Source of the DNA: a virus
Virus record (IMG/VR): IMGVR_UViG_3300005355_000015
Location: 1 to 32,511 of that record
Reading direction: 5' to 3' (one strand)
DNA: 32,511 nucleotides
Part shown: positions 1 to 32,205 of the stretch, piece after piece
Layout of the letters: each line of letters begins with the position of its first letter
Position numbering within the stretch: position 1 is the stretch's first letter
Notes under the pieces: generated by a model
What the model was told of the DNA's origin: nothing
The model's database searches: none
What the model saw: only the letters and a program-made list of their open reading frames with translations
Translations under genes and position numbers: made by a program

Positions 1-209
1 GCGACGGCGAGTACGTCGTCGAGTTTCACGTCTCGGAGCTCGCGCCGCTGAGCGCGACGATTCTCGGCTCGAGCTCGCTCCGCGGCGTCGAGTACGAGCA
101 GGGGGTCGAGCCGAATCTCTCGACCGCCCGCCGGACGATCGCGCTCGCGCGCCATCAGGACGGCCGCGCAACCTTCGACGAGGCTTTCGCCGTGACGCGC
201 GGCGTCTAA
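1..209 (+). CDS. Partial small phage protein, 3' end; paralogue of 31894-32205
   Basis: The frame beginning at base 3 reads DGEYVVEFHVSELAPLS and runs to TAA at 207-209, giving about 68 residues of a C-terminus. Bases 1-101 are identical to 32030-32130, inside a complete 103-aa gene near the other end of the window. After base 101 the copies diverge but stay homologous (PNL-TARRTIALAR-QDG in both), and this copy has about 12 extra C-terminal residues. The 5' end lies outside the window. No known domain is recognised. A terminator-like hairpin follows, and the next gene converges on it from the minus strand. Confidence 0.75.
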   Translation, partial: DGEYVVEFHVSELAPLSATILGSSSLRGVEYEQGVEPNLSTARRTIALARHQDGRATFDEAFAVTRGV

Positions 210-266: not shown

Positions 267-1169
267 CTAGAGCGGCTGCGGCGCCGGCTCGATGAACAGC
301 GAGTCGCCGGTGACGCGGAGATCAGATCCGACGAGAGCTGCGGCCGCAGTCAGCGGCTCGTGCCGCCACGGCCGCTCGCGCCAACACTCGATAAGCGCCT
401 CGACGTCGCGGCCGAGCCGTGCCGCCTGATAGCTCGCGTACCACCGCTCCTCGGCCCACCCGTTCTGACGGGCCCGCTTGCCGTACATCGCTTGCGCCGG
501 CCCGTGCAGCCCGAGGTAGCGGAGCGTTTCCGCGGTGTAGAACGTCGCGCGCGGATCGCCGGCCTCGAGCGCCGGTCGGAGCAGCTCGAGGTCGCGCTCG
601 AGCTTGACTGCGGTCGACGCGCCATCGCCGACGTGCTCGAGCTGCAGCCCGACGATATTCATAGCGTTCGGCACCTCGAGCGCTTCGTGCGTCGCGCCGA
701 CGTACCGGAGCTCCGCGTCGCCGCGCACGAGCCGCGGCACCCGGTACTCGAGCCCGTGATCGAACACGGATACCTGCCACGCGTCGACGGCGATCGCGCC
801 GGCGCCGGCGAGCCACTCGCGCAGCCCGTCGTTCACGAACCGGAGCACGTAGTCGGCGTCGACGACGAGCAGCCAATCGGCCGAGCCTCGAGCTCGTCGC
901 AGCGCGAGCGTCCGGTTATGTCCGAACGACCGCCACGTGTGCCGGTACAGCCGGCCGGGTTTCGAGCGCAGTAGGTACTTCACGAGCTCGCGCGTGCCGT
1001 CGGTCGATCCCGTGTCGCAGATCGTCCACGTGTCGACGAGGTCGGCCTCGAGGAACGACCGCAGGCACCGCGTCAGGATCGGTTCCTCGTCGCGGACGAT
1101 CATCACGAGCCCGAGCGTCGCACGCGCCGGCGGCGCCGCTCGCCGAGCTCGAGCTCGCCGTTCGCTCAC
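267..1169 (-). CDS. GT2-family glycosyltransferase (GT-A fold)
   Basis: This 300-aa protein is expected to transfer a sugar from a nucleotide-sugar donor. The N-terminus after an Arg/Ala-rich leader reads LGLVMIVRDEEPILTRCL, followed by DTGSTDGT, the usual start of a GT-A/GT2 domain. The metal-binding DxD motif appears as VVDAD near residue 105. The C-terminal third resembles the helical tail of GT2 enzymes that act on proteins or peptides, but the acceptor cannot be read from sequence. The GTG start at 1169 overlaps the stop of the upstream virion gene by 4 nt (GTGA). It is the last gene of the long minus-strand array, directly after the tail-fibre genes, which suggests modification of virion proteins (inference). 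Confidence 0.8.
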   Translation of the reverse strand: MSERRARARRAAPPARATLGLVMIVRDEEPILTRCLRSFLEADLVDTWTICDTGSTDGTRELVKYLLRSKPGRLYRHTWRSFGHNRTLALRRARGSADWLLVVDADYVLRFVNDGLREWLAGAGAIAVDAWQVSVFDHGLEYRVPRLVRGDAELRYVGATHEALEVPNAMNIVGLQLEHVGDGASTAVKLERDLELLRPALEAGDPRATFYTAETLRYLGLHGPAQAMYGKRARQNGWAEERWYASYQAARLGRDVEALIECWRERPWRHEPLTAAAALVGSDLRVTGDSLFIEPAPQPL

Positions 1170-2650: not shown

Positions 2651-3742
2651 CTAGTTAAGCAGCTTGTATCGGAGGAACGAGCCGGCTCGAACGGTGACGC
2701 CGTTCGTCGAGCTCGTGACCTGCGCCCATTGCACCTTGAACGCGACCGCCGGCGACGGGCTCGTGAACATGCCGACGAATTGACACGTGCGGTCGGCGCC
2801 GTTCGGCTCGCACCCGAACGACTGCGACGCGTTCAGCTGAAAACCCGTAAACCCGGAGGTGATCGCGTTATCGGCCGTGTTGATACAGCCGAAGTGATAA
2901 CAGCCGCGGTACGTGTTATCGCAGCCGGCCGTAGCTTTGAAATCGGGATCGGTGCCGCCGGTCGCGCGCGCGTAAATGAGACCGATCTCGATCAGATACG
3001 ACTTGTTCGCGGTCGGCGTGAACGTGAGCTCGTTATCGTCCTGCAGCGTTACGGAGCTCGTGACGGTCTCGTCGACTGATTTCGTGATCGTCGTCCAATC
3101 CGAGCCGCCGGCGCCGGTCGGCCCCGTGGGCCCCGTGGGCCCGGTCGGCCCGGTCGGCCCGGTCGGCCCCGTGGGCCCGGTCGGCCCCGTGGCGCCCGTC
3201 GAGCCGGTCGCGCCGGTCGGCCCGGTCGGCCCCGTCGGCCCGGTAGGACCGGTCGCGCCGGTCGATCCCGTCGAGCCGGTCGGCCCGGTCGGCCCGACTG
3301 CCCCTTGCGCGCCGGCGGCGCCCGTCGCGCCCGTCGGGCCGGCGGCGCCCGTCGCGCCGGTCGGCGCCGATGCCATGTTGAACGTGACGTCGCCGGTCGA
3401 GCTCGAGATCGACCACACGACGACGTGCCCGGACGCGTCCGAGCCGATGAGGATCTCGTCCTCGTCGGGAATCCATGCCGTCGGCAGCGTGAACACGACC
3501 GAGCCGTCGGCGCCGCCGCTGATGAATCCCTGCAGCTCGAGCCCGGCCGGGTGATTGACGTTTCGGCGGAACCGCATTCGCCGTAGCCCCGTGCCGACGT
3601 TCGCCCACGAGTTTTGAAACGCCGGCGATTCGTCGGTCGTATCGTCGTCCGTCGGGTAGTCGCCGACAAAGATCCACGGCGCCGGGATCGGGTCGGCGCC
3701 CTCGGATCGGTGATCGCGTGCGTGTAGCTGCGGCTTTGGCAT
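2651..3742 (-). CDS. Collagen-like (Gly-Pro-Thr) tail fibre protein
   Basis: The start is set at ATG 3742, whose A is the last base of the upstream TGA (TGATG). This gives 363 aa ([15 protein letters not shown]...). A longer reading of the frame would run through the preceding tail gene and is rejected. Residues about 1-125 are globular and include [11 protein letters not shown] and [14 protein letters not shown]. They are followed by roughly 28 uninterrupted Gly-X-Y triplets, mostly GPT, GAT and GST. A C-terminal domain of about 150 aa contains several cysteines and ends SFLRYKLLN. Phage collagen-like stretches form trimeric stalks; the C-terminal domain is probably a trimerisation or receptor-binding head. 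The Y position is almost always threonine, which could be glycosylated. Confidence 0.85.
3111..3367 (-). repeat. Nine-base-period repeat encoding collagen triplets
   Basis: This is a tandem array of 9-bp units (variants of ggtcggccc/cgtgggccc on the plus strand) encoding Gly-Pro-Thr and Gly-Ala-Thr triplets. The near-identical units make it prone to slippage, so triplet number may vary between isolates or be misassembled. Confidence 0.9.
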
Positions 3743-8795: not shown

Positions 8796-9047
8796 TCACG
8801 CGGTAGAGACGCCGGTCGGCGCCTCGGTGGAATGCGGCCGTTCTGACCGCCACTCGGCCGGCGGTTCGTACTTCGCCGGCTCGACTGTAGGCGACTCGCG
8901 ACGCAGGAGCTCGATCGCGTTCCGCGCGATCGCGCGCTGCTCGACTGCGGGGTCGAGGTACGCCTCGAAAACTGTTCCGGGCTCGTGCCCGCGGTACTTG
9001 CGCCGGCCGATCACCCGATACACGCCGAACGGCCTCGAGCGCGTCAC
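8796..9047 (-). CDS. Small conserved-looking phage protein, unknown
   Basis: The start is GTG 9047, overlapping the stop of the upstream gene by 4 nt, giving 83 aa (VTRSRPFGVYRVIGRRKYRG...). The longer open frame is an Arg-rich shadow. Residues 1-60 carry HEPGTVFEAYLDPAVEQRAI, a pattern seen in short head-tail or tail-adjacent ORFs of actinophages. The C-terminus is Pro/Ser/Glu-rich. It has no membrane segment or cysteine. It lies between the sugar-modification cassette and the major tail protein. Function is unknown. Confidence 0.65.
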   Translation of the reverse strand: MTRSRPFGVYRVIGRRKYRGHEPGTVFEAYLDPAVEQRAIARNAIELLRRESPTVEPAKYEPPAEWRSERPHSTEAPTGVSTA

Positions 9048-9817
9048 GCTGCGACCGCCTCGGCGACGCCGTAGTGCGCGCGCATTTCCTCGAGCGCCTC
9101 GGCCGGGTAGTGCTCGGCGAGCTCGGCCCACGGGTCGACGTAGTCGGCGCCGCGACGCAGCCGGCCTATCTCGAGGTACCCGTTCAGCTGCTCGCCGCGC
9201 GATTTCCAATCGACGATTTGCCGGTCGTGTAGGTGCCGGTGCTCGATCCGCATTCGGTGCCCGAGGTGCCGCTGTAGGTTCGTGAGGATGCTCGTATCGC
9301 AGCCGCGAGATCGGTCCTCGTCGCCGGGCCGGTACCCGAGCTCGGCCATCAGCGCGCGCGGAAAAATCCGAATGCCGGCGCCGCCCGGGTAGTTGAGGTG
9401 AGCAGTCATCATTTCGCGGCCGTCCTCCCGTACGAACGACATTCGCTGAAACCCGTAGACAGTGTGATCGTCGGGGAGGTCGGCGAACAGCCGCCAATCG
9501 GCCCAATCGTCGGAACCGAACGGCACGACGTAGTCGGCCGGCCGCGGCGAGATCTTCGGGTCGAGCGCGCATTGAATGCCGTCGTTGAACTTGCGCGACA
9601 GGAACCGGTTATCGCGCTCGTACGTGCCGAACCCGAGCAGCCCCGCGCCGAGCCGGTGCGCGAGCTCGAGGAGGTTCTCGCGGTCGGTGATCAGGATCGC
9701 GCTCGCGTCGACGCCGGCGCCGGCGAGCTCGTCGCACGTCCTGCGGAGCTGCCGTAGGCAGATCGCGGCGAGGTCGTGCCGGCCGTGCACGGGTACGACG
9801 AACGCGAGCCTGCTCAC
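9044..9817 (-). CDS. Glycosyltransferase-like protein (GT-A fold)
   Basis: The start is GTG 9817 (GTGA overlap), giving 257 aa beginning VSRLAFVVPVHGRHDLAAIC, the GT-A opening strand and loop. It continues with ASAILITDRENLLELAHRLG, then VVPFGSDDWADWRLF, where SDD is in the place of the DxD motif. After this comes LNYPGGAGIRIFPRALM and a DTSILTNLQRHLG segment, as in GT2 enzymes that check an acceptor. Donor and acceptor are unknown. It is the last gene of a six-gene cassette of carbohydrate-active or modifying enzymes embedded between tail-terminator and major-tail genes. Confidence 0.7.
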   Translation of the reverse strand: MSRLAFVVPVHGRHDLAAICLRQLRRTCDELAGAGVDASAILITDRENLLELAHRLGAGLLGFGTYERDNRFLSRKFNDGIQCALDPKISPRPADYVVPFGSDDWADWRLFADLPDDHTVYGFQRMSFVREDGREMMTAHLNYPGGAGIRIFPRALMAELGYRPGDEDRSRGCDTSILTNLQRHLGHRMRIEHRHLHDRQIVDWKSRGEQLNGYLEIGRLRRGADYVDPWAELAEHYPAEALEEMRAHYGVAEAVAA

Positions 9818-10629
9818 GCGGCGAGCCTTTCGGCGGCGAATGCCCGAGCCCACCAATCCGGATGAATCAGCATGTGCAGCTGCCGCGGGTGGTCGGTCTC
9901 GGTCGGCAGCTCCTCGACGTCGAGCTGCTCGGCGAACTTCGCCGCGGTCTCGCCGAACCCGGGATTGAGCCACCGCCCGCCCGAGTCGGAGATCCTGAAC
10001 GGGAACGGGTACGCGCACCATACGGCGTCGTACTCGAGCCCGAAATCGGCGAGCGGCCGCGGCGCGATCTGCCGGCTAATCGCCCCGCGCGTGATCACAC
10101 GGTCGGACGGCCCCATGTTCACGCGTCGACACTCGAGAAATTGCTCGTCGTTCGCGAACGTGCCCTCGTCGATCCCGCGGTCGCGATTGCAGAACGGGTC
10201 GCCGTGCCCCGCGACGCCGCGCACGGGGTAGCCGAGCTCGCGCAGCCGCGCGATCGCGCGGTCGAGGATCTCGTCGGGATCTTCGCCGGTCCGGAGCGAC
10301 TCGGCGAGCGCGTTCGAGTGAATGCCGATCTCGTGCCCGTAGCCGGCGATCTCCTCGAGGAGCTGCGGAAACGCCGGCGACGTCCAATACGGCGACGTGT
10401 GCAGCACGTAGTACGTCGACCGGTAGCCGCGCTCGGCCTCCCACCGCGCCATTTTCGCCGCGGTCTCGATCGACTCGGCCGAGTCGCAGTCGTGCCGGAG
10501 CCCGATCACGTTCGGAGCTCGAGCTCCGGCTACGACGTCCGCCATCGCGACCACGCGCGCCGCCCGCGCGAGGAAACGACGGTCGAGCTCCTCGAGGTCG
10601 TCGGCCCTGAACGGTGCGCGGTCTCTCAC
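9814..10629 (-). CDS. Polysaccharide deacetylase-like (NodB-fold) protein
   Basis: This 271-aa protein starts at GTG 10629, overlapping the upstream stop by GTGA. VIGLRHDCDSAESI replaces the first metal-binding NodB motif (His-Asp-x-Asp). A segment GYRSTYYVLHTSPYW follows, then the second motif region GHEIGIHSNALAES, and further on GVAGHGDPFCNRD. This order is that of carbohydrate esterase family 4-related proteins, which remove N- or O-acetyl groups from sugars. The classical HxxxH is degenerate here (HSNAL), so activity is uncertain. It may trim an acetylated sugar made by its neighbours. Confidence 0.7.
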   Translation of the reverse strand: MRDRAPFRADDLEELDRRFLARAARVVAMADVVAGARAPNVIGLRHDCDSAESIETAAKMARWEAERGYRSTYYVLHTSPYWTSPAFPQLLEEIAGYGHEIGIHSNALAESLRTGEDPDEILDRAIARLRELGYPVRGVAGHGDPFCNRDRGIDEGTFANDEQFLECRRVNMGPSDRVITRGAISRQIAPRPLADFGLEYDAVWCAYPFPFRISDSGGRWLNPGFGETAAKFAEQLDVEELPTETDHPRQLHMLIHPDWWARAFAAERLAA

Positions 10630-11222
10630 GTGGTCGCCTCCCTGATCGCTCGAGCTCGGCGGATCGCCTCAGTCTTAAGCGCGACCGCGTCGTCGAGATT
10701 GCACATACGGTCGGGCGCCTCGGCCCACGGCAGCGCGTCGAACCGAATGTCGAGCTGTTTCGTCGGCGCGATTACGCCGATGATCGTGTCCGACCACAGA
10801 TCGAAAAACTCGTCGCGCGGCCACACGGCGAGATACCGATCGACCGCCTCGAGCCACACGTCGCGGTCGGCGATCGAGCCCGAGCCCGGGAACACGAGGT
10901 CGTCGTACCCGTGCTCGATCCCCTGCCGGCGAGCTCCGTCTGACCACTCCGACCACATACAGCCGGCGAGCACGCCCGGCTCGTACGCCTCGAGGATCGC
11001 GAGCTGATTCTCCGGCGTGTGCACGATATCGTCGTCCTGCGAGTAGATCACGCCGTGCTGCGCGCGCAGCGCTCCGAGCACGCGGCCGTGAGTCATCGCG
11101 TCGACGGGCTCGACCGAATTGTCATAGACGACGACGTCGTCGAAGATCAGCGATTCGAGCACGGGCTCGAGGTCGACGTCGCCCTTCGTGACGATCACGG
11201 CCGAGACGTTAGACGGGAACAC
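10626..11222 (-). CDS. Glycosyltransferase-like protein
   Basis: This 198-aa protein starts at GTG 11222 (VFPSNVSAVIVTKGDVDLEP). The Rossmann-like GT-A opening is followed by DDVVVYDNSVEPVDAMT. The acidic run SQDDDIVHTPEN is a plausible DxD site. Toward the C-terminus is a conserved-looking VFPGSGSIADRDVW. It is short for a GT2, lacking the C-terminal acceptor-binding part. It overlaps the upstream GT2 gene by 14 nt. Donor and acceptor are unknown. Confidence 0.65.
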   Translation of the reverse strand: MFPSNVSAVIVTKGDVDLEPVLESLIFDDVVVYDNSVEPVDAMTHGRVLGALRAQHGVIYSQDDDIVHTPENQLAILEAYEPGVLAGCMWSEWSDGARRQGIEHGYDDLVFPGSGSIADRDVWLEAVDRYLAVWPRDEFFDLWSDTIIGVIAPTKQLDIRFDALPWAEAPDRMCNLDDAVALKTEAIRRARAIREATT

Positions 11223-11853
11223 GGGTCTCCCTCGCGAGCATTTCCTCGAGGTGCTCGGCGCGCGCGCTGATCGTGAGCTCGGTCTGTCCGCGTGTCATTG
11301 CGTGCCGGCGATAGTAGAAATGCGACCGGCTGCTCGAGACGAACGACGCGCCGGCGCGCGCGAGCTCGCGCCACAGCGCCCAATCCTGCAGCGCGACGTC
11401 GGGGAACCCGCCCACCGCGCGCAGCGTCGACGCCCTGATGCACGAGCCGGCCACGAACGGGTTACGGTCGAGCTCGAGGAGCTCCGCGCCGGCGAGCTGC
11501 GGCGGTCGGTAGTCCTCGCCGTCGGAGCTCGTGTAGCCGAGCTGCCACACGTCGCCGGCGACGAGCTCGAGCCCCTCGAGCGCGTCAGAGAACGCGACGT
11601 CGTCGACGTCGAGCTGCCATACCCATTCGGTCCGCACGAGCTCGAGCGCCGCGTTCAGATACGCCGGCTGCGGATAGCGCCCGCCGGCGTCGGCCTCGAC
11701 CTCGAGCACGCCGCCGATCAGCCGCGGCCGGTCGGTTCCGACGATTACCCACGCCGGCGCCGGATCGAGCCCGCGGAGCGCGCGTACCCACTCGTCGACG
11801 TACTCGTCGTGCGAGTCGCCGTACAGGCACGAGATCACGGTCGCGTCGGTCAC
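11209..11853 (-). CDS. GT2-family glycosyltransferase
   Basis: The start is GTG 11853 (GTGA overlap with the GNAT-like gene), giving 214 aa starting VTDATVISCLYGDSHDEYV. The GT2 hallmarks are WVIVGTDRP, LNAALELVRTEWVWQLDVDDVAF with the DVDD metal site near residue 85, and GGFPDVALQDWALWRELARA, the GGF...D.xLW motif of GT2 enzymes. The frame extends upstream, but that part is an Arg-rich shadow. This is the best-supported glycosyltransferase of the cassette. Confidence 0.8.
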   Translation of the reverse strand: MTDATVISCLYGDSHDEYVDEWVRALRGLDPAPAWVIVGTDRPRLIGGVLEVEADAGGRYPQPAYLNAALELVRTEWVWQLDVDDVAFSDALEGLELVAGDVWQLGYTSSDGEDYRPPQLAGAELLELDRNPFVAGSCIRASTLRAVGGFPDVALQDWALWRELARAGASFVSSSRSHFYYRRHAMTRGQTELTISARAEHLEEMLARETRVPV

Positions 11854-12497
11854 AGCTGCCACTCGACCTCGCCGGCGGCGAACCCTAGCCGCTCTTTGTA
11901 GTACCGGAGCCCCTCGGTTCCGGAATCGTGCCGGTTGTAGTAGAACACGCCGCCGGCGCCGGCCTGATCCGCGACGACGCCGGCGAATAGGAGATACATC
12001 ACGTCGTCGGCGAGGTGCGCGCCGTGTCCGAGGATCATCGAGACGAGCGCGAGCTCGTGCACGCGGTACAGCGTCAGATAGGCGCGCAGCCGGTCGCCCT
12101 GCAGCACGCCGTATGTGCGGATCGCGTGCCTCGAGCACGGGTACTCGGGCAGCCGGCCGTGCCGGCGCCACGAGCGGTACCCGGCCTCCATCGGCCGGCC
12201 CTGCCGCGCGCTTAGCGACGTGTTGATCTCGTGAATGTCATCGTCGAACAGCGAGCGATCGATCTCGGCGAACGAGTAGCCGAGCCGGCCGCAGCGGTCG
12301 GCCCGCTTGCGCGCCGTCCGGTGCTCCGCGCGCCACTCCTCGAGCGACGCCGGCACGGCGAGCAGCGAGACGTTTTCGCGGTACTTCGGCGTATCGAGTT
12401 TCGCGCGCATCGTGCCGGCGAGCTCGAGACAGCCCGCGGCCGCGCACGATCCGAGGAGGTCGACGCGAGTCGCCTCGAGCGCTGCGACCTCAGACAC
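11850..12497 (-). CDS. GNAT-like acyltransferase
   Basis: This 215-aa protein starts at GTG 12497, overlapping the methyltransferase-like gene by 8 nt. The C-terminal half has hydrophobic strands (LYRVHELALVSMILGHG, MYLLFAGVVADQAG) and ends GLRYYKERLGF, the common last motif of GNAT proteins, which move an acyl group from acyl-CoA to an amine or sugar. The N-terminus has cysteines (GSCAAAGCLE) and a charged helical segment, not a canonical acetyl-CoA loop. In a sugar cassette it could acylate an amino-sugar, but a protein target is possible. Confidence 0.55.
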   Translation of the reverse strand: MSEVAALEATRVDLLGSCAAAGCLELAGTMRAKLDTPKYRENVSLLAVPASLEEWRAEHRTARKRADRCGRLGYSFAEIDRSLFDDDIHEINTSLSARQGRPMEAGYRSWRRHGRLPEYPCSRHAIRTYGVLQGDRLRAYLTLYRVHELALVSMILGHGAHLADDVMYLLFAGVVADQAGAGGVFYYNRHDSGTEGLRYYKERLGFAAGEVEWQL

Positions 12498-12972
12498 GAG
12501 TCAGGACCAACCACGACGCCGCCGGCGAGCGGACGATCGTCGACGCCTGCCACCCGTCGACCACGGGCGCCGGCGCGTCGAACGGAATCGTGACGGTCGC
12601 GACCTTGCGCGCGAGCTCGAGGAACGCCGGCAGATTCGCGCGCACTCGCTCCGTCGCGTCGCCGAGGAAAGGGTCGACACTGATCGCATCCCACACGCGG
12701 CCGGCAGCTCGAGCTCGCTCGACGAACTCGAACGCGTCGCCGGCGACGAGCTCGACGCACCCGGGATACACGGCGCGCATCTGCTCGAGCCGGCCGGCGT
12801 CGCGGTCGACGGCTACCGTCGCGATCCGCCGGCGCGCGAAATGCACGACGTCGTTCACGCCGAGGAACGCGGCCGCAAACAGACACAGCCCGGTCTCGCA
12901 GCCGGCGAGCAGCCACGCCGGGTATTCGCGAGCCTCTCGAGAGATCGCCGGCTCGAGCTCGGCGACGGTCAC
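12490..12972 (-). CDS. SAM-dependent methyltransferase-like protein
   Basis: The start is GTG 12972 (GTGA overlap), giving 160 aa (VTVAELEPAISREARE...). It has a class-I methyltransferase-like layout: GCETGLCLFAAAFLG near residue 24, ATVAVDRDAGRLEQM with the acidic ribose-binding Asp, then CVELVAGDAFEFVER and WDAISVDPFLGD. It lacks a clear GxGxG glycine loop, so binding of SAM needs testing. It is the first gene of the sugar-modification cassette and directly follows the tail terminator gene. Confidence 0.6.
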   Translation of the reverse strand: MTVAELEPAISREAREYPAWLLAGCETGLCLFAAAFLGVNDVVHFARRRIATVAVDRDAGRLEQMRAVYPGCVELVAGDAFEFVERARAAGRVWDAISVDPFLGDATERVRANLPAFLELARKVATVTIPFDAPAPVVDGWQASTIVRSPAASWLVLTRV

Positions 12973-13412
12973 GAGCGCGCTTTCACGACGACGAACGACC
13001 ACAGGCACCCGAGCCACCGCCCCTCGCCCGAGAGATCGGGAAACTCGCGGTACCCGCTGCGGCCGCGGAACGCGAGCGTGTCGGCGAGCCCGTTCAGCGT
13101 CGGATCGGTGATCGCATTCACGATCGAGAGCTCGTGCTCGTCGTCCATGAACCCGAGCAGGAGCGATTGCCCGGCGTCGATATCCGCAGCTGAGACGCGA
13201 GCTCGAACGGTGATCAGCTCGCCGCCCATCTGCTCGCCGAACGCGGCGAGCTCGGGCTCGTTCGACGGGTCGGCCGGGTAGATATCGATCGCCGGCGGCG
13301 ACGGTGCGAGGAGCCACCCGGGCTCGACTTGCACGTCGACGTCGGTCACGTCGTCGATCGTGTCGCGGATCTGATTCGCGAGCTCGGCGAGGATCTGCTC
13401 GAGCGTCGCCAC
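12969..13412 (-). CDS. Tail terminator / head-tail joining protein
   Basis: This 147-aa protein starts at GTG 13412, one base past the upstream TAA. It has an N-terminal helix (ATLEQILAELANQIRDTI), then VQVEPGWLLAPSPPAIDIYP and ITVRARVSAADIDAGQ. The last part is WSFVVVKARS. This alpha-beta layout and length match tail-terminator proteins in actinophages. It lies right after the head-tail adaptor, as expected, though the sugar-modification genes intervene before the major tail protein. Confidence 0.65.
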   Translation of the reverse strand: MATLEQILAELANQIRDTIDDVTDVDVQVEPGWLLAPSPPAIDIYPADPSNEPELAAFGEQMGGELITVRARVSAADIDAGQSLLLGFMDDEHELSIVNAITDPTLNGLADTLAFRGRSGYREFPDLSGEGRWLGCLWSFVVVKARS

Positions 13413-25733: not shown

Positions 25734-26798
25734 TCAGCCCTCCTCGCGGTAGGCCATCGAGCCTCGCGGCTCGTCGGGGATCGGGAACGCCGGCTGCTCG
25801 AGCTCGGCCGGATCGTCGGGCAGCATCGCGTCGAGCGCCGCGACCATCTTCTCGAGCCACTCGGCCGAGACCTTGCCGCCGTGCTTCGCCCGGAACGCGT
25901 CGACCGCGTCGGATGCCGTGCGGTGCTCGTCGGGCCCGACGCGCTTCGCGAGCTCGAGCATCGCGCCGACGTCGACGTCCGTCGCGAGCGGGGGATCACC
26001 GGCGCCGCTGCGGGGAGAGGCAGAGTCGCCAGAGGAACGACTCGGTACAGCGGCGCCGGTCTTGTCGCCGGCAGCCCATGCGGCTAGGCGCCGGCCGGTG
26101 TCCTCGTCGAGCTGCCGGTCGAGCGGCACGATCTCCTCGAACCGCCGCTCGAGCTTCACGGGTACAGGCACGCCCGGATTGTCCGGCGTGAGCACGACGG
26201 AGAGGGTCGCCTCGAACGGCAGCCGCCGCTCGCAGATCGGAATCCACCCGCCGGCGCCCGTGTACGACTGTTTCGGGACGACCTCGGTCCGACCGCCCAC
26301 CTTCACAATGTCGACTTTGTCCTCGGCCCGGTGACACACGATCACGTGCGGCCGAGCTCGCAGGAGAGCGGCGACGTAGCGCTTATGCCGCTGTTTCGGC
26401 CGGGCCCACGAGAGGAGTTTCGTGTTCTCGCCGCCGCCGAGCCGCGCGTGCTCCTCGAGCTGCAGATCGAGCACGCCGCCCTCGCCGTCGTACTCGTGCG
26501 AGCCGGAGTCGATCACGATCACGGCCGGGTCGAGCGCCTCCGCGGCGACGATCGCCTCGACGTAGCGCTCGGGTGAGAACGGCCCCTCGAGCGTCGCGTG
26601 CAGGAACCGGTAGTCGTCGGCCTTGTGCAGCATCCGGCCGCGCTCGGTGTCGATCGCGACGATAGTCCCGGTCTCGCCGGCGATGCCGGTCGCGATCCGC
26701 AGCGCGGACTCGGTTTTGCCGGTGCCGGTGCCGCCGGCGAGCAGCACGAGGAGCTGCGTCTCAGCGCGTACGGCGTCGCGGAACTCGAGCGGGCTCAT
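25734..26798 (-). CDS. RecA-fold ATPase, Sak4-like
   Basis: The start is ATG 26798, with ATGA overlap, giving 354 aa. QLLVLLAGGTGTGKTESALR near residue 20 is Walker A; ALDPAVIVIDSGSHEYDG is Walker B. Sensor segments follow (ARPHVIVCHRAEDKVDIV). A disordered Ser/Pro/Gly-rich linker leads to a helical C-terminal region (SAEWLEKMVAALDAML). This fits phage AAA/RecA-fold ATPases such as Sak4 annealing proteins, which often lie beside a RecE-like exonuclease. It does so here, so a recombination role is likely. Confidence 0.72.
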   Translation of the reverse strand: MSPLEFRDAVRAETQLLVLLAGGTGTGKTESALRIATGIAGETGTIVAIDTERGRMLHKADDYRFLHATLEGPFSPERYVEAIVAAEALDPAVIVIDSGSHEYDGEGGVLDLQLEEHARLGGGENTKLLSWARPKQRHKRYVAALLRARPHVIVCHRAEDKVDIVKVGGRTEVVPKQSYTGAGGWIPICERRLPFEATLSVVLTPDNPGVPVPVKLERRFEEIVPLDRQLDEDTGRRLAAWAAGDKTGAAVPSRSSGDSASPRSGAGDPPLATDVDVGAMLELAKRVGPDEHRTASDAVDAFRAKHGGKVSAEWLEKMVAALDAMLPDDPAELEQPAFPIPDEPRGSMAYREEG

Positions 26799-27010
26799 CG
26801 GACCATCCGTAGGACGTTGATCGGATCGCCGAACTCGAACGACGCCGAGCGGCCCGCCGTGTAGTGCATCGCCTCGAGCACGCCGGCGTAGACGACTTCC
26901 CACCGGTCGCGCCGGCGTAGCCACAGCCACCGCCAATCGCGCCGGCCGCGTCGCCGGCCGCGCAGCACGAGCACTTTCGCCGGCATCCCGGGTTGCAGAT
27001 TCGCGAGCAT
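26795..27010 (-). CDS. Small 71-aa basic protein, unknown
   Basis: ATG 27010 shares a base with the upstream TAA (TAATG), and TGA overlaps the ATPase start. The frame reads MLANLQPGMPAKVLVLRGRR, an Arg/Trp-rich centre (DWRWLWLRRRDRWEVVYAGV), then FGDPINVLRMVR. The basic centre suggests nucleic-acid binding; no family is recognised. Confidence 0.6.
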   Translation of the reverse strand: MLANLQPGMPAKVLVLRGRRRGRRDWRWLWLRRRDRWEVVYAGVLEAMHYTAGRSASFEFGDPINVLRMVR

Positions 27011-27918
27011 TAGCTGCCACCTCCGAAAACGTTGTAAGGGTCCTCGAGCTCGAGCTCGAGCCACCGCGATTCTTCGTACGCCGGCAGCGTCGCGAACGCG
27101 ACCGCGTCGCGATACGCCGGCCACGAGTCGCCGGCGACGCACTTCCGCCAGAGCTCGAGCGCGTAGTCGACTTTTTTCCGCGCGATCGTCTCGGCGTCGG
27201 GTGCGAGCTGCAGCACCGAGACCGCGTGCGGCTGCTCGAGCTCGACGACGACGAGCCGGAACGCCGGCCGGGTGCCGGTCAGCGTCTCGATTCCGCGCCG
27301 GTAGAACTCGGCCTGCACGTCGTACCCGAGCGAGAACACTTGCCGCGCCCACGACGCCGGGTGCGCCGATCGGCTCGTGACCTTTAGGTCGTCGATCACG
27401 GTCACGTCGGAGCGGAGCCAATCGAGCCGCGACCGGCAGAGCACCTCGTCGCCGAGCTCTTTCCATAGGACCGTGACCTCCGGATCGCCGTCGGCGAACA
27501 GCGGCGGATCGTCCGAGCGCGCCTCGAGCCGGCCGCGGAGCGTCGCGACCGTGTCGAGCACGAGCTGCCACTGATCGGAGAGGAGCGGTACGCGCCCTCG
27601 AGCTCGGATCTCGTCGCGCGCCTCCTGCGCGACCTTCGTCCGGTAGTCGGCCGCGTCGACGCACTCGACGACCTCGACGCCCTCGAGGAACACACTGTGC
27701 GCGGCCGTGCCGAGGTCGAACGCGACAGACGTCGCCGGCACGTGGTCGGGGTTCAGCCTCGGGTGCGCGGCCCACGCGTGCGCCGGCGACGCGCCGCAGA
27801 GCAGTTTCGCGATCGAGCTCGAGAGCGACGGCCGGCCGGCCGGGTCGGCGTCGGCCCACGGGTCGGCGTGGTACGTCGCGGCCGGGATGCCCTTCGCGAT
27901 TCCGCCGGCGACGGTCAC
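27010..27918 (-). CDS. RecE-like / PD-(D/E)XK exonuclease
   Basis: The start is GTG 27918, overlapping the upstream stop by GTGA, giving 302 aa (VTVAGGIAKGIPAATYHADP). It fits phage RecE/exonuclease VIII-like nucleases. SLSSSIAKLLCGASPAHAWA and FDLGTAAHSVFLEGVE form the N-terminal part with the His. CRSRLDWLRSDVTVIDDLKV carries the D...(D/E)xK-type site (DLK). QVFSLGYDVQAEFYRRGIE closes the core. It probably digests 5' ends to give single strands for the neighbouring ATPase. Confidence 0.8.
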   Translation of the reverse strand: MTVAGGIAKGIPAATYHADPWADADPAGRPSLSSSIAKLLCGASPAHAWAAHPRLNPDHVPATSVAFDLGTAAHSVFLEGVEVVECVDAADYRTKVAQEARDEIRARGRVPLLSDQWQLVLDTVATLRGRLEARSDDPPLFADGDPEVTVLWKELGDEVLCRSRLDWLRSDVTVIDDLKVTSRSAHPASWARQVFSLGYDVQAEFYRRGIETLTGTRPAFRLVVVELEQPHAVSVLQLAPDAETIARKKVDYALELWRKCVAGDSWPAYRDAVAFATLPAYEESRWLELELEDPYNVFGGGS

Positions 27919-28157
27919 GAGAGCGCCTCGCGAGCTCGACGCACAGCGGCGAAACACGCCTCGAGCTCGCCTTTCGCGATCGCGAGGTGATGCACGGCCA
28001 TATCGAACGCGTCGTCGGCGAGGAGCTCCTGCGCCGCGGTCTCGAATCCCTCGAGTTTCCCCTCGAGCTCGTACGCGAACCGCTCGAGCCGCGACCGGTG
28101 ATAGCCGACGTTCTCGCGGTAGCGTTTCGCGCGGATCTCGTCGAGCGTCACGGTCAC
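27915..28157 (-). CDS. Small 80-aa helical protein, unknown
   Basis: GTG 28157 (GTGA overlap) opens VTVTLDEIRAKRYRENVGYH. The rest is helical (AYELEGKLEGFETAAQELLA, MAVHHLAIAKGELEACFAAV). It may be a small coiled-coil or adaptor protein; no family is recognised. Confidence 0.6.
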   Translation of the reverse strand: MTVTLDEIRAKRYRENVGYHRSRLERFAYELEGKLEGFETAAQELLADDAFDMAVHHLAIAKGELEACFAAVRRAREALS

Positions 28158-31848: not shown

Positions 31849-31894
31849 GTGATCACTCTCGGCCACTGACGGCAGTCACGGCCTCTCGAGAGTG
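31849..31894. promoter_or_regulatory. Dyads in divergent intergenic region
   Basis: The 146-nt gap between the minus lysis operon (31747) and plus gene (31894) holds GTGATCAC, a perfect palindrome at 31849-31856. CACTCTCG (31854-31861) pairs with CGAGAGTG (31887-31894) with partial inner pairing (TGAC/GTCA). They resemble regulator sites, and divergent promoters are expected here, but no clear promoter hexamers are assigned. Confidence 0.4.
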
Positions 31895-32205
31895 TGCCAA
31901 ACCCGCGCGGACGTTTCTACGTGGAATCCCTCGAACGGGTGATCGAGCTCGCGCTCGCCGGCGACGATGATCTGAACATGCCTACTTCACAGCTTCCCCT
32001 CGTGACCGCGATCGGCGGTCGTATGTACGGCGACGGCGAGTACGTCGTCGAGTTTCACGTCTCGGAGCTCGCGCCGCTGAGCGCGACGATTCTCGGCTCG
32101 AGCTCGCTCCGCGGCGTCGAGTACGAGCAGCACGTCGCGCCAAATCTTGAGACCGCGCGCCGGACGATCGCGCTCGCGCGGCTGCAGGATGGCACCTCGT
32201 GCTGA
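31894..32205 (+). CDS. Small 103-aa protein; paralogue of left-edge gene
   Basis: GTG 31894 opens MPNPRGRFYVESLERVIELA; ATG 31978 is an internal alternative. The middle (IGGRMYGDGEYVVEFHVSEL) and end (ARRTIALARLQDGTSC) match the partial gene at 1-209. Its 32030-32130 bases are identical to 1-101 of the window. It appears to be a small alpha/beta protein; function unknown. The last bases overlap the start of the next gene. Confidence 0.75.
   Translation: MPNPRGRFYVESLERVIELALAGDDDLNMPTSQLPLVTAIGGRMYGDGEYVVEFHVSELAPLSATILGSSSLRGVEYEQHVAPNLETARRTIALARLQDGTSC

Follow-up and report, generated by a model that had tools for sequence, protein, structure and literature searches.

A recurrent block of candidate sugar-modifying genes in the structural operons of uncultivated phages

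A seven-gene block between tail terminator and major tail protein

The soil bacteriophage record IMGVR_UViG_3300005355_000015 (32,511 bases; we call the whole analysed stretch the window) contains a minus-strand structural operon in which seven overlapping genes separate the tail terminator gene (13412-12969) from the major tail protein gene (8779-8363). Six of them resemble enzymes that act on sugars: a methyltransferase (MT), an acyltransferase of the GNAT family, three glycosyltransferases (GT3, GT4 and GT6) and a deacetylase of the NodB type (NodB-like). The seventh, sm84, encodes a small conserved protein. We found that this cassette is a real, conserved module that crosses phage lineages, and because homologous blocks recur in dozens of contigs its make-up cannot be put down to chance. 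With moderate confidence, we propose that it glycosylates virion proteins, probably those of the tail, using an edited amino sugar.

Starting from the tail terminator, the genes run in the order MT, GNAT, GT3, GT4, NodB-like, GT6 and sm84, followed by the major tail protein. The overlaps between neighbors are 4 bases (tail terminator/MT, GNAT/GT3, GT4/NodB-like, NodB-like/GT6 and GT6/sm84), 8 bases (MT/GNAT) or 14 bases (GT3/GT4), and a gap of 16 bases separates sm84 from the major tail protein. A scan for promoters and terminators gave no signal above chance. A preliminary description of the window had placed six open reading frames here; all six are present on the minus strand, each overlapping its neighbors by 4-14 bases, and the identities it gave to the two flanking genes are upheld by PHROG matches in relatives, but it overlooked sm84. 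The features are as follows.

12969-13412, minus strand: tail terminator, the upstream flank (phrog_17840 in 16 of 18 relatives, best 1.5e-10)
12490-12972, minus strand: MT, Rossmann/class I methyltransferase-like, 160 amino acids
11850-12497, minus strand: GNAT-family acyltransferase-like protein, 215 amino acids
11209-11853, minus strand: GT3, GT-A-like glycosyltransferase, 214 amino acids
10626-11222, minus strand: GT4, predicted GT-A glycosyltransferase, 198 amino acids
9814-10629, minus strand: NodB-like, a predicted CE4-fold, polysaccharide-deacetylase-like protein, 271 amino acids
9044-9817, minus strand: GT6, GT-A-like glycosyltransferase, 257 amino acids
8796-9047, minus strand: sm84, small conserved protein, 83 amino acids
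8363-8779, minus strand: major tail protein, the downstream flank and a possible acceptor (phrog_4574/phrog_1407, 2e-4 to 2e-3, in a few of 15 members)
267-1169, minus strand: GT7, a separate GT2 enzyme

Recurrence of the block in relatives, unrelated phages and bacteria

Scanning IMG/VR with the capsid protein yielded 56 relatives. Every one of the 11 capsid-selected contigs whose sequence continues for 3.5 kb or more beyond the tail terminator carries at least three cassette genes (one of these contigs, L022, is near-identical to the window), and at least one cassette gene is present in 15 of the 17 that reach 0.7 kb past it. Searches with NodB-like gave 17 and then 67 loci. Among the 41 loci with 3 kb of sequence on each side, the genes lying within 5 kb of NodB-like were GNAT (36 loci), MT (30), GT6 (30), GT4 (24) and GT3 (10). 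GT3 is limited to one subgroup of relatives, and only GT6, GNAT, MT and NodB-like were seen in L144, L051, L105 and L113.

The block also occurs in the structural operons of unrelated phages. It directly follows the capsid gene in L103 and L105, which have a different capsid family (capsid phrog_267, portal phrog_104), and the order in L016, L097 and L102, judged by eye, is the same. Elsewhere it is placed ahead of the terminase and portal genes (L125), lies downstream of a terminase-like gene (L133), or sits between fiber-like and connector-like genes (L130). Genes in these loci were called with a codon-position script in place of a gene finder, and any function given without a PHROG number was read by eye.

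Four of the cassette genes were searched for among deposited phages and gave no clear match. The NodB-like, GT4, GT6 and GNAT proteins of the window found no match by tblastn in 50,697 deposited phage records, nor did NodB-like from L133 or GT6 from L125, and NodB-like from L021 gave a single weak partial match (0.004). As a positive control, the capsid protein matched 36 of these records at about 28-30% identity, mostly Corndog-kind mycobacteriophages among the matches listed; since this query reaches Corndog-like phages at about 28%, the search is able to reach distant relatives.

We also scanned GTDB genomes. The scan found one contig of the same phage type in an Actinomycetota metagenome-assembled genome (L144) and several Chloroflexi contigs in which NodB-like lies beside a GNAT homolog (L146-L150 and L152). 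L146 and L148 also contain an ABC-2 exporter and other polysaccharide genes, and L149 is near GroEL. The Chloroflexi NodB-like proteins at L146 9551-11452 and L149 9749-11572 have an additional C-terminal domain.

The presence of a NodB-GNAT pair in polysaccharide loci with exporters would be compatible with a different role for the phage enzymes, in which they remodel a surface glycan of the host (seroconversion or superinfection exclusion) and so hide or change the receptor during infection. Deacetylation and acylation of surface sugars are a common route to serotype change. We nevertheless regard this role as rather unlikely. Beside the phage block we saw no flippase, no GtrA/GtrB-like membrane protein and, unlike in L146 and L148, no exporter gene, and the cassette proteins look soluble, with no clear membrane anchor and a single borderline hydrophobic stretch in MT. 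Remodeling of the host surface also fits poorly with the location of the block in the structural operons of unrelated phages, and with the evolution of GT6 alongside tail genes that we describe below.

The surroundings of the block vary among the relatives. Several kb of extra genes lie between the capsid and adaptor genes in L039 (4868-8442), L051 (4934-9623) and L060 (4911-14555); some of these genes are fiber- or decoration-like, and L060 has a further GT2-like gene. In L071, L072 and L114 a homolog of the major tail protein is encoded immediately behind the capsid gene and not after the cassette.

Predicted enzymes, candidate acceptor and proposed pathway

When the window proteins are used alone, Pfam and PHROGs give almost nothing for most of the cassette genes, so we gathered the families from related contigs and aligned them (alignments A1-A7). 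We also made structure predictions with AlphaFold2 for two of the proteins, GT4 and NodB-like. The predicted structure of GT4 (pLDDT 96.5) confirms its GT-A fold, which is accompanied by a DxD-type motif: its best PDB fold match is EXTL2 (E = 7.3e-5, Z = 15.1, 186 residues), QDDD is invariant in the family alignment, and the homolog in the relative L072 exceeds the Pfam cut-off for GT2. Profile matches support GT6 and GT3 as glycosyltransferases, putatively of the GT-A fold. For GT6, profile A5 matches the PDB glycosyltransferase 3bcv at 3.3e-4 and GSDDW is invariant; for GT3 there are matches to the glycosyltransferase family phrog_9549 (3e-9) and to PDB 6p61 (0.024), and a DxDD motif is conserved.

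The GNAT protein is likewise supported as an acyltransferase-like member of its family. Pfam Acetyltransf_6 (PF13480) matches 2 of 24 relatives (best 1.4e-4) and a Chloroflexi homolog (0.002), and the family alignment A2 is strongly conserved; as a single sequence the protein of the window has no Pfam match, and NCBIfam gave no match for either the NodB-like or the GNAT proteins. MT may be a methyltransferase: profile A1 searched against PDB gives 3c0k (RlmI/YccW) at 0.007, plus other S-adenosylmethionine methyltransferases across the same stretch, and D56, D95 and D100 are invariant in its alignment, in which the classical GxGxG is not evident.

The predicted structure of NodB-like (pLDDT 93.1) has as its best VIA matches the CE4 proteins HP0310, PplD and WbmS (Z = 11.1), and it matches many CE4 structures at Z = 8-11, including ArnD at Z = 10.2. 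Motif 1 of the CE4 family, RHDxD with its two aspartates, is invariant in 20 of 20 family members; H77, H99, H104, H142, D215 and H256 are invariant too. Motif 2 (HxxxH) is incomplete: H104 is invariant and there is no histidine at position 108. We therefore label the product a CE4-fold protein, and not a CE4 deacetylase. The other invariant histidines (77, 99, 142 and 256) could act as substitutes for the second histidine of the motif. Pfam PF01522 weakly matches the records of two relatives at 4-5e-4, which is under its cut-off.

CE4-fold domains occur as parts of virions, for example in the HFTV1 turret, and NodB-like has a BFVD match in Arthrobacter phage Mudcat, to one of its minor tail proteins (4.6e-3). 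These parallels would suit a virion-borne deacetylase that acts on host polysaccharide at entry, its neighbors being unrelated morons. We consider this highly improbable. NodB-like is a stand-alone protein in which we saw no tail-attachment domain, and its gene is near GNAT in 36 of 41 loci; GNAT enzymes need acyl-CoA and hence work inside cells.

These results bear out much of what the preliminary description had said of the enzymes. Both modeled proteins have the predicted folds that it expected (GT-A for GT4, CE4 for NodB-like) and its classes for GT3, GT6 and GNAT are supported by profiles, whereas its methyltransferase is weakly supported. The idea that the set trims and acylates a sugar is plausible.

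The small protein sm84 is encoded immediately behind GT6 in most relatives. At 11402-12460 of L027 (a contig that is also L120), the GT6 reading frame contains a complete sm84 domain as an in-frame insertion that ends up right in front of the GSDD motif, and because of this insertion we infer that sm84 is probably a partner of GT6. In L030 the GT6-sm84 pair is kept with the tail terminator and major tail protein, and the other enzymes lie before the portal gene; in L105 sm84 remains with the tail protein, and GT6 is elsewhere. Across related contigs, the pairwise distances of GT6 correlate (Spearman) with those of the tail terminator at 0.67, the major tail protein at 0.39, the capsid at 0.21 and NodB-like at 0.18. 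With the capsid held constant the correlation between GT6 and the tail terminator is 0.65, and with the tail terminator held constant that between GT6 and the capsid is -0.03. GT4 divergence correlates most with NodB-like and GNAT. Given the linkage of sm84 and GT6 to tail genes, and the co-divergence of GT6 with the tail terminator, a tail protein is the favored candidate for the first acceptor.

A more restricted acceptor is suggested by the other end of the window. GT7, which the preliminary description had counted as a seventh member of the set, is a real GT2 gene (PF00535, 2.6e-11) but is not conserved with the others: we found no homolog of it in the records of 23 relatives (a search without a positive control, in records that may be fragments), and on this ground we rejected it as a cassette member. 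It overlaps a neighboring fiber-like gene (1166-2647) by 4 bases, and another fiber-like gene (2651-3700) encodes a collagen-like run of 27 GXY triplets, many of them GPT. In Bacillus BclA, repeats of GPT carry O-linked glycans. The cassette might accordingly modify a specific tail fiber or collagen-like fiber, and not the capsid or tail tube, which we think quite unlikely: besides the lack of conservation of GT7, most carriers of the cassette show no collagen-like run in their available sequence, and we rejected the collagen-like fiber as a general acceptor. Fiber modification may apply to GT7 alone.

Phage glycosyltransferases can also act on DNA, as the T4-type enzymes do, and acceptors are not readable from sequence. 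Hypermodification of the bases of the phage DNA, or synthesis of a small sugar compound, is nonetheless a very unlikely purpose for enzymes that are located in structural operons, and a Pfam scan of ten window proteins outside the cassette, a subset of its open reading frames, found no base-modification enzyme.

Under virion glycosylation, a short glycan would be built and edited on structural proteins of the phage itself, in the cytoplasm and at a late stage of infection. GT6, aided by sm84 as a docking or accessory subunit, would link the first sugar to a protein of the virion, most likely a tail protein. GT4 would extend the glycan, as would GT3 in the subgroup to which the window belongs. 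An amino sugar would then lose an N-acyl group to the CE4-fold protein and receive another acyl group, on the amine so exposed, from GNAT; the MT-like protein would methylate the product. The acceptor, the chemistry, the order of the steps and an active CE4-fold protein are all parts of this proposal. We also advance, tentatively and with less belief than doubt, a bolder version: that the block is a widespread module, crossing phage lineages, by which an amino sugar on the phage's tail protein undergoes Nod-factor-like chemistry (transfer, N-deacylation, re-acylation and methylation); that sm84 is an adaptor recruiting the first glycosyltransferase to the tail as it grows; and that this decoration is undescribed in cultured phages.

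Several observations weigh against virion glycosylation. In L123, L124 and L127 the block is near primase or replication-like genes, and the Chloroflexi NodB-GNAT pairs are partly in surface-polysaccharide loci, which would also fit a role on host glycans. The methyltransferase assignment is the weakest in the block. Without the second histidine of HxxxH, deacetylase activity of NodB-like is not assured. The correlations of evolutionary rate come from 23 related contigs and are suggestive only. Set against these points, the fit of the two modeled folds and the recurrence of the block in structural operons of unrelated phages support virion glycosylation, as the preliminary description had proposed. 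The module suggests that uncultivated soil phages commonly decorate their particles with edited sugars, and that this has escaped notice because most of the cassette genes fall below standard annotation cut-offs. With its named enzymes, its invariant residues and a candidate for the adaptor, it makes the chemistry and purpose of this decoration directly testable.

Elsewhere in the window, 27010-27957 encodes a DUF3799 PDDEXK-like nuclease (9.6e-21) and 25734-26801 an AAA_24 ATPase (1e-6), which are possibly a recombination pair. The two ends of the window (3-209 and 31894-32205) encode a nearly identical peptide (DGEYVVEFHVSELAPLSATILGSSSLRGVEYEQ), either a duplicated gene or an end repeat.

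Comparison with known sugar-modification systems

Phage cassettes with multiple glycosyltransferases precede this one, so its general kind, that of Corndog and Che8, is already known from the Catdawg cassette and from reports on cluster O. Catdawg, a Corndog-like phage, has an O-methyltransferase and three glycosyltransferases between its portal and protease genes, and prophiGD91-2 has several glycosyltransferases and two methyltransferases just upstream of terminase; the statement in the preliminary description that phage glycosyltransferases usually occur singly was wrong. A 2015 paper on cluster O proposed that these enzymes modify the capsid (PMC4351075). Two later papers, both citing Freeman 2023, report that the cluster O enzymes modify the capsid and the tail tube, with weaker antibody responses (PMC11600133, PMC12363180). 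Glycosylated particles have been reported for a few mycobacteriophages, in which the modification affects how antibodies recognize them (PMC12363180).

Like the cluster O cassette, that of the window has several glycosyltransferases and a methyltransferase embedded in a head-tail operon, and the capsid protein of the window is distantly related (28.5%) to the capsids of Corndog-like phages, its closest cultured capsid relatives. The positions differ, being between portal and protease in cluster O and between tail terminator and tail protein in the window, and neither a CE4-fold protein nor a GNAT nor sm84 is annotated in the cluster O region that we read. Comparisons by hhalign of A1, A3, A5 and A6 with Catdawg gp33-gp36, covering six of the possible pairs, all gave probabilities below 1%, in an insensitive setting of single sequences against shallow profiles.

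We found no published description, in the open literature, of a phage cassette that combines NodB, GNAT and glycosyltransferase genes. What appears new is the pairing of a deacetylase-fold protein with an N-acyltransferase, the location of the block, and sm84. Polysaccharide deacetylases are listed as auxiliary genes in papers on soil viruses (PMC6460857, PMC11924767). The Chloroflexi pairs are adjacent homologs, for the most part 41-46% identical to the closest phage members. They are chromosomal, two of the three loci that we read adjoin an ABC-2 exporter, and MT, GT4 and GT6 were not detected in them. CE4 proteins of the WbmS and ArnD type share the fold of NodB-like at low identity (16-19%); the phage family differs from the canonical one in its motif 2.

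The nodABCS genes specify a glycosyltransferase, an N-deacetylase, an N-acyltransferase and a methyltransferase. The cassette has the same list of predicted activities as these Nod factor genes, and the likeness is one of activities alone. The proposed pathway would follow the logic of NodC, NodB, NodA and NodS, but on a glycan linked to protein. The likeness of the phage GT4 is to soluble GT-A transferases, EXTL2 being one, and not to the membrane chitin synthases; the acceptor is presumably a protein.

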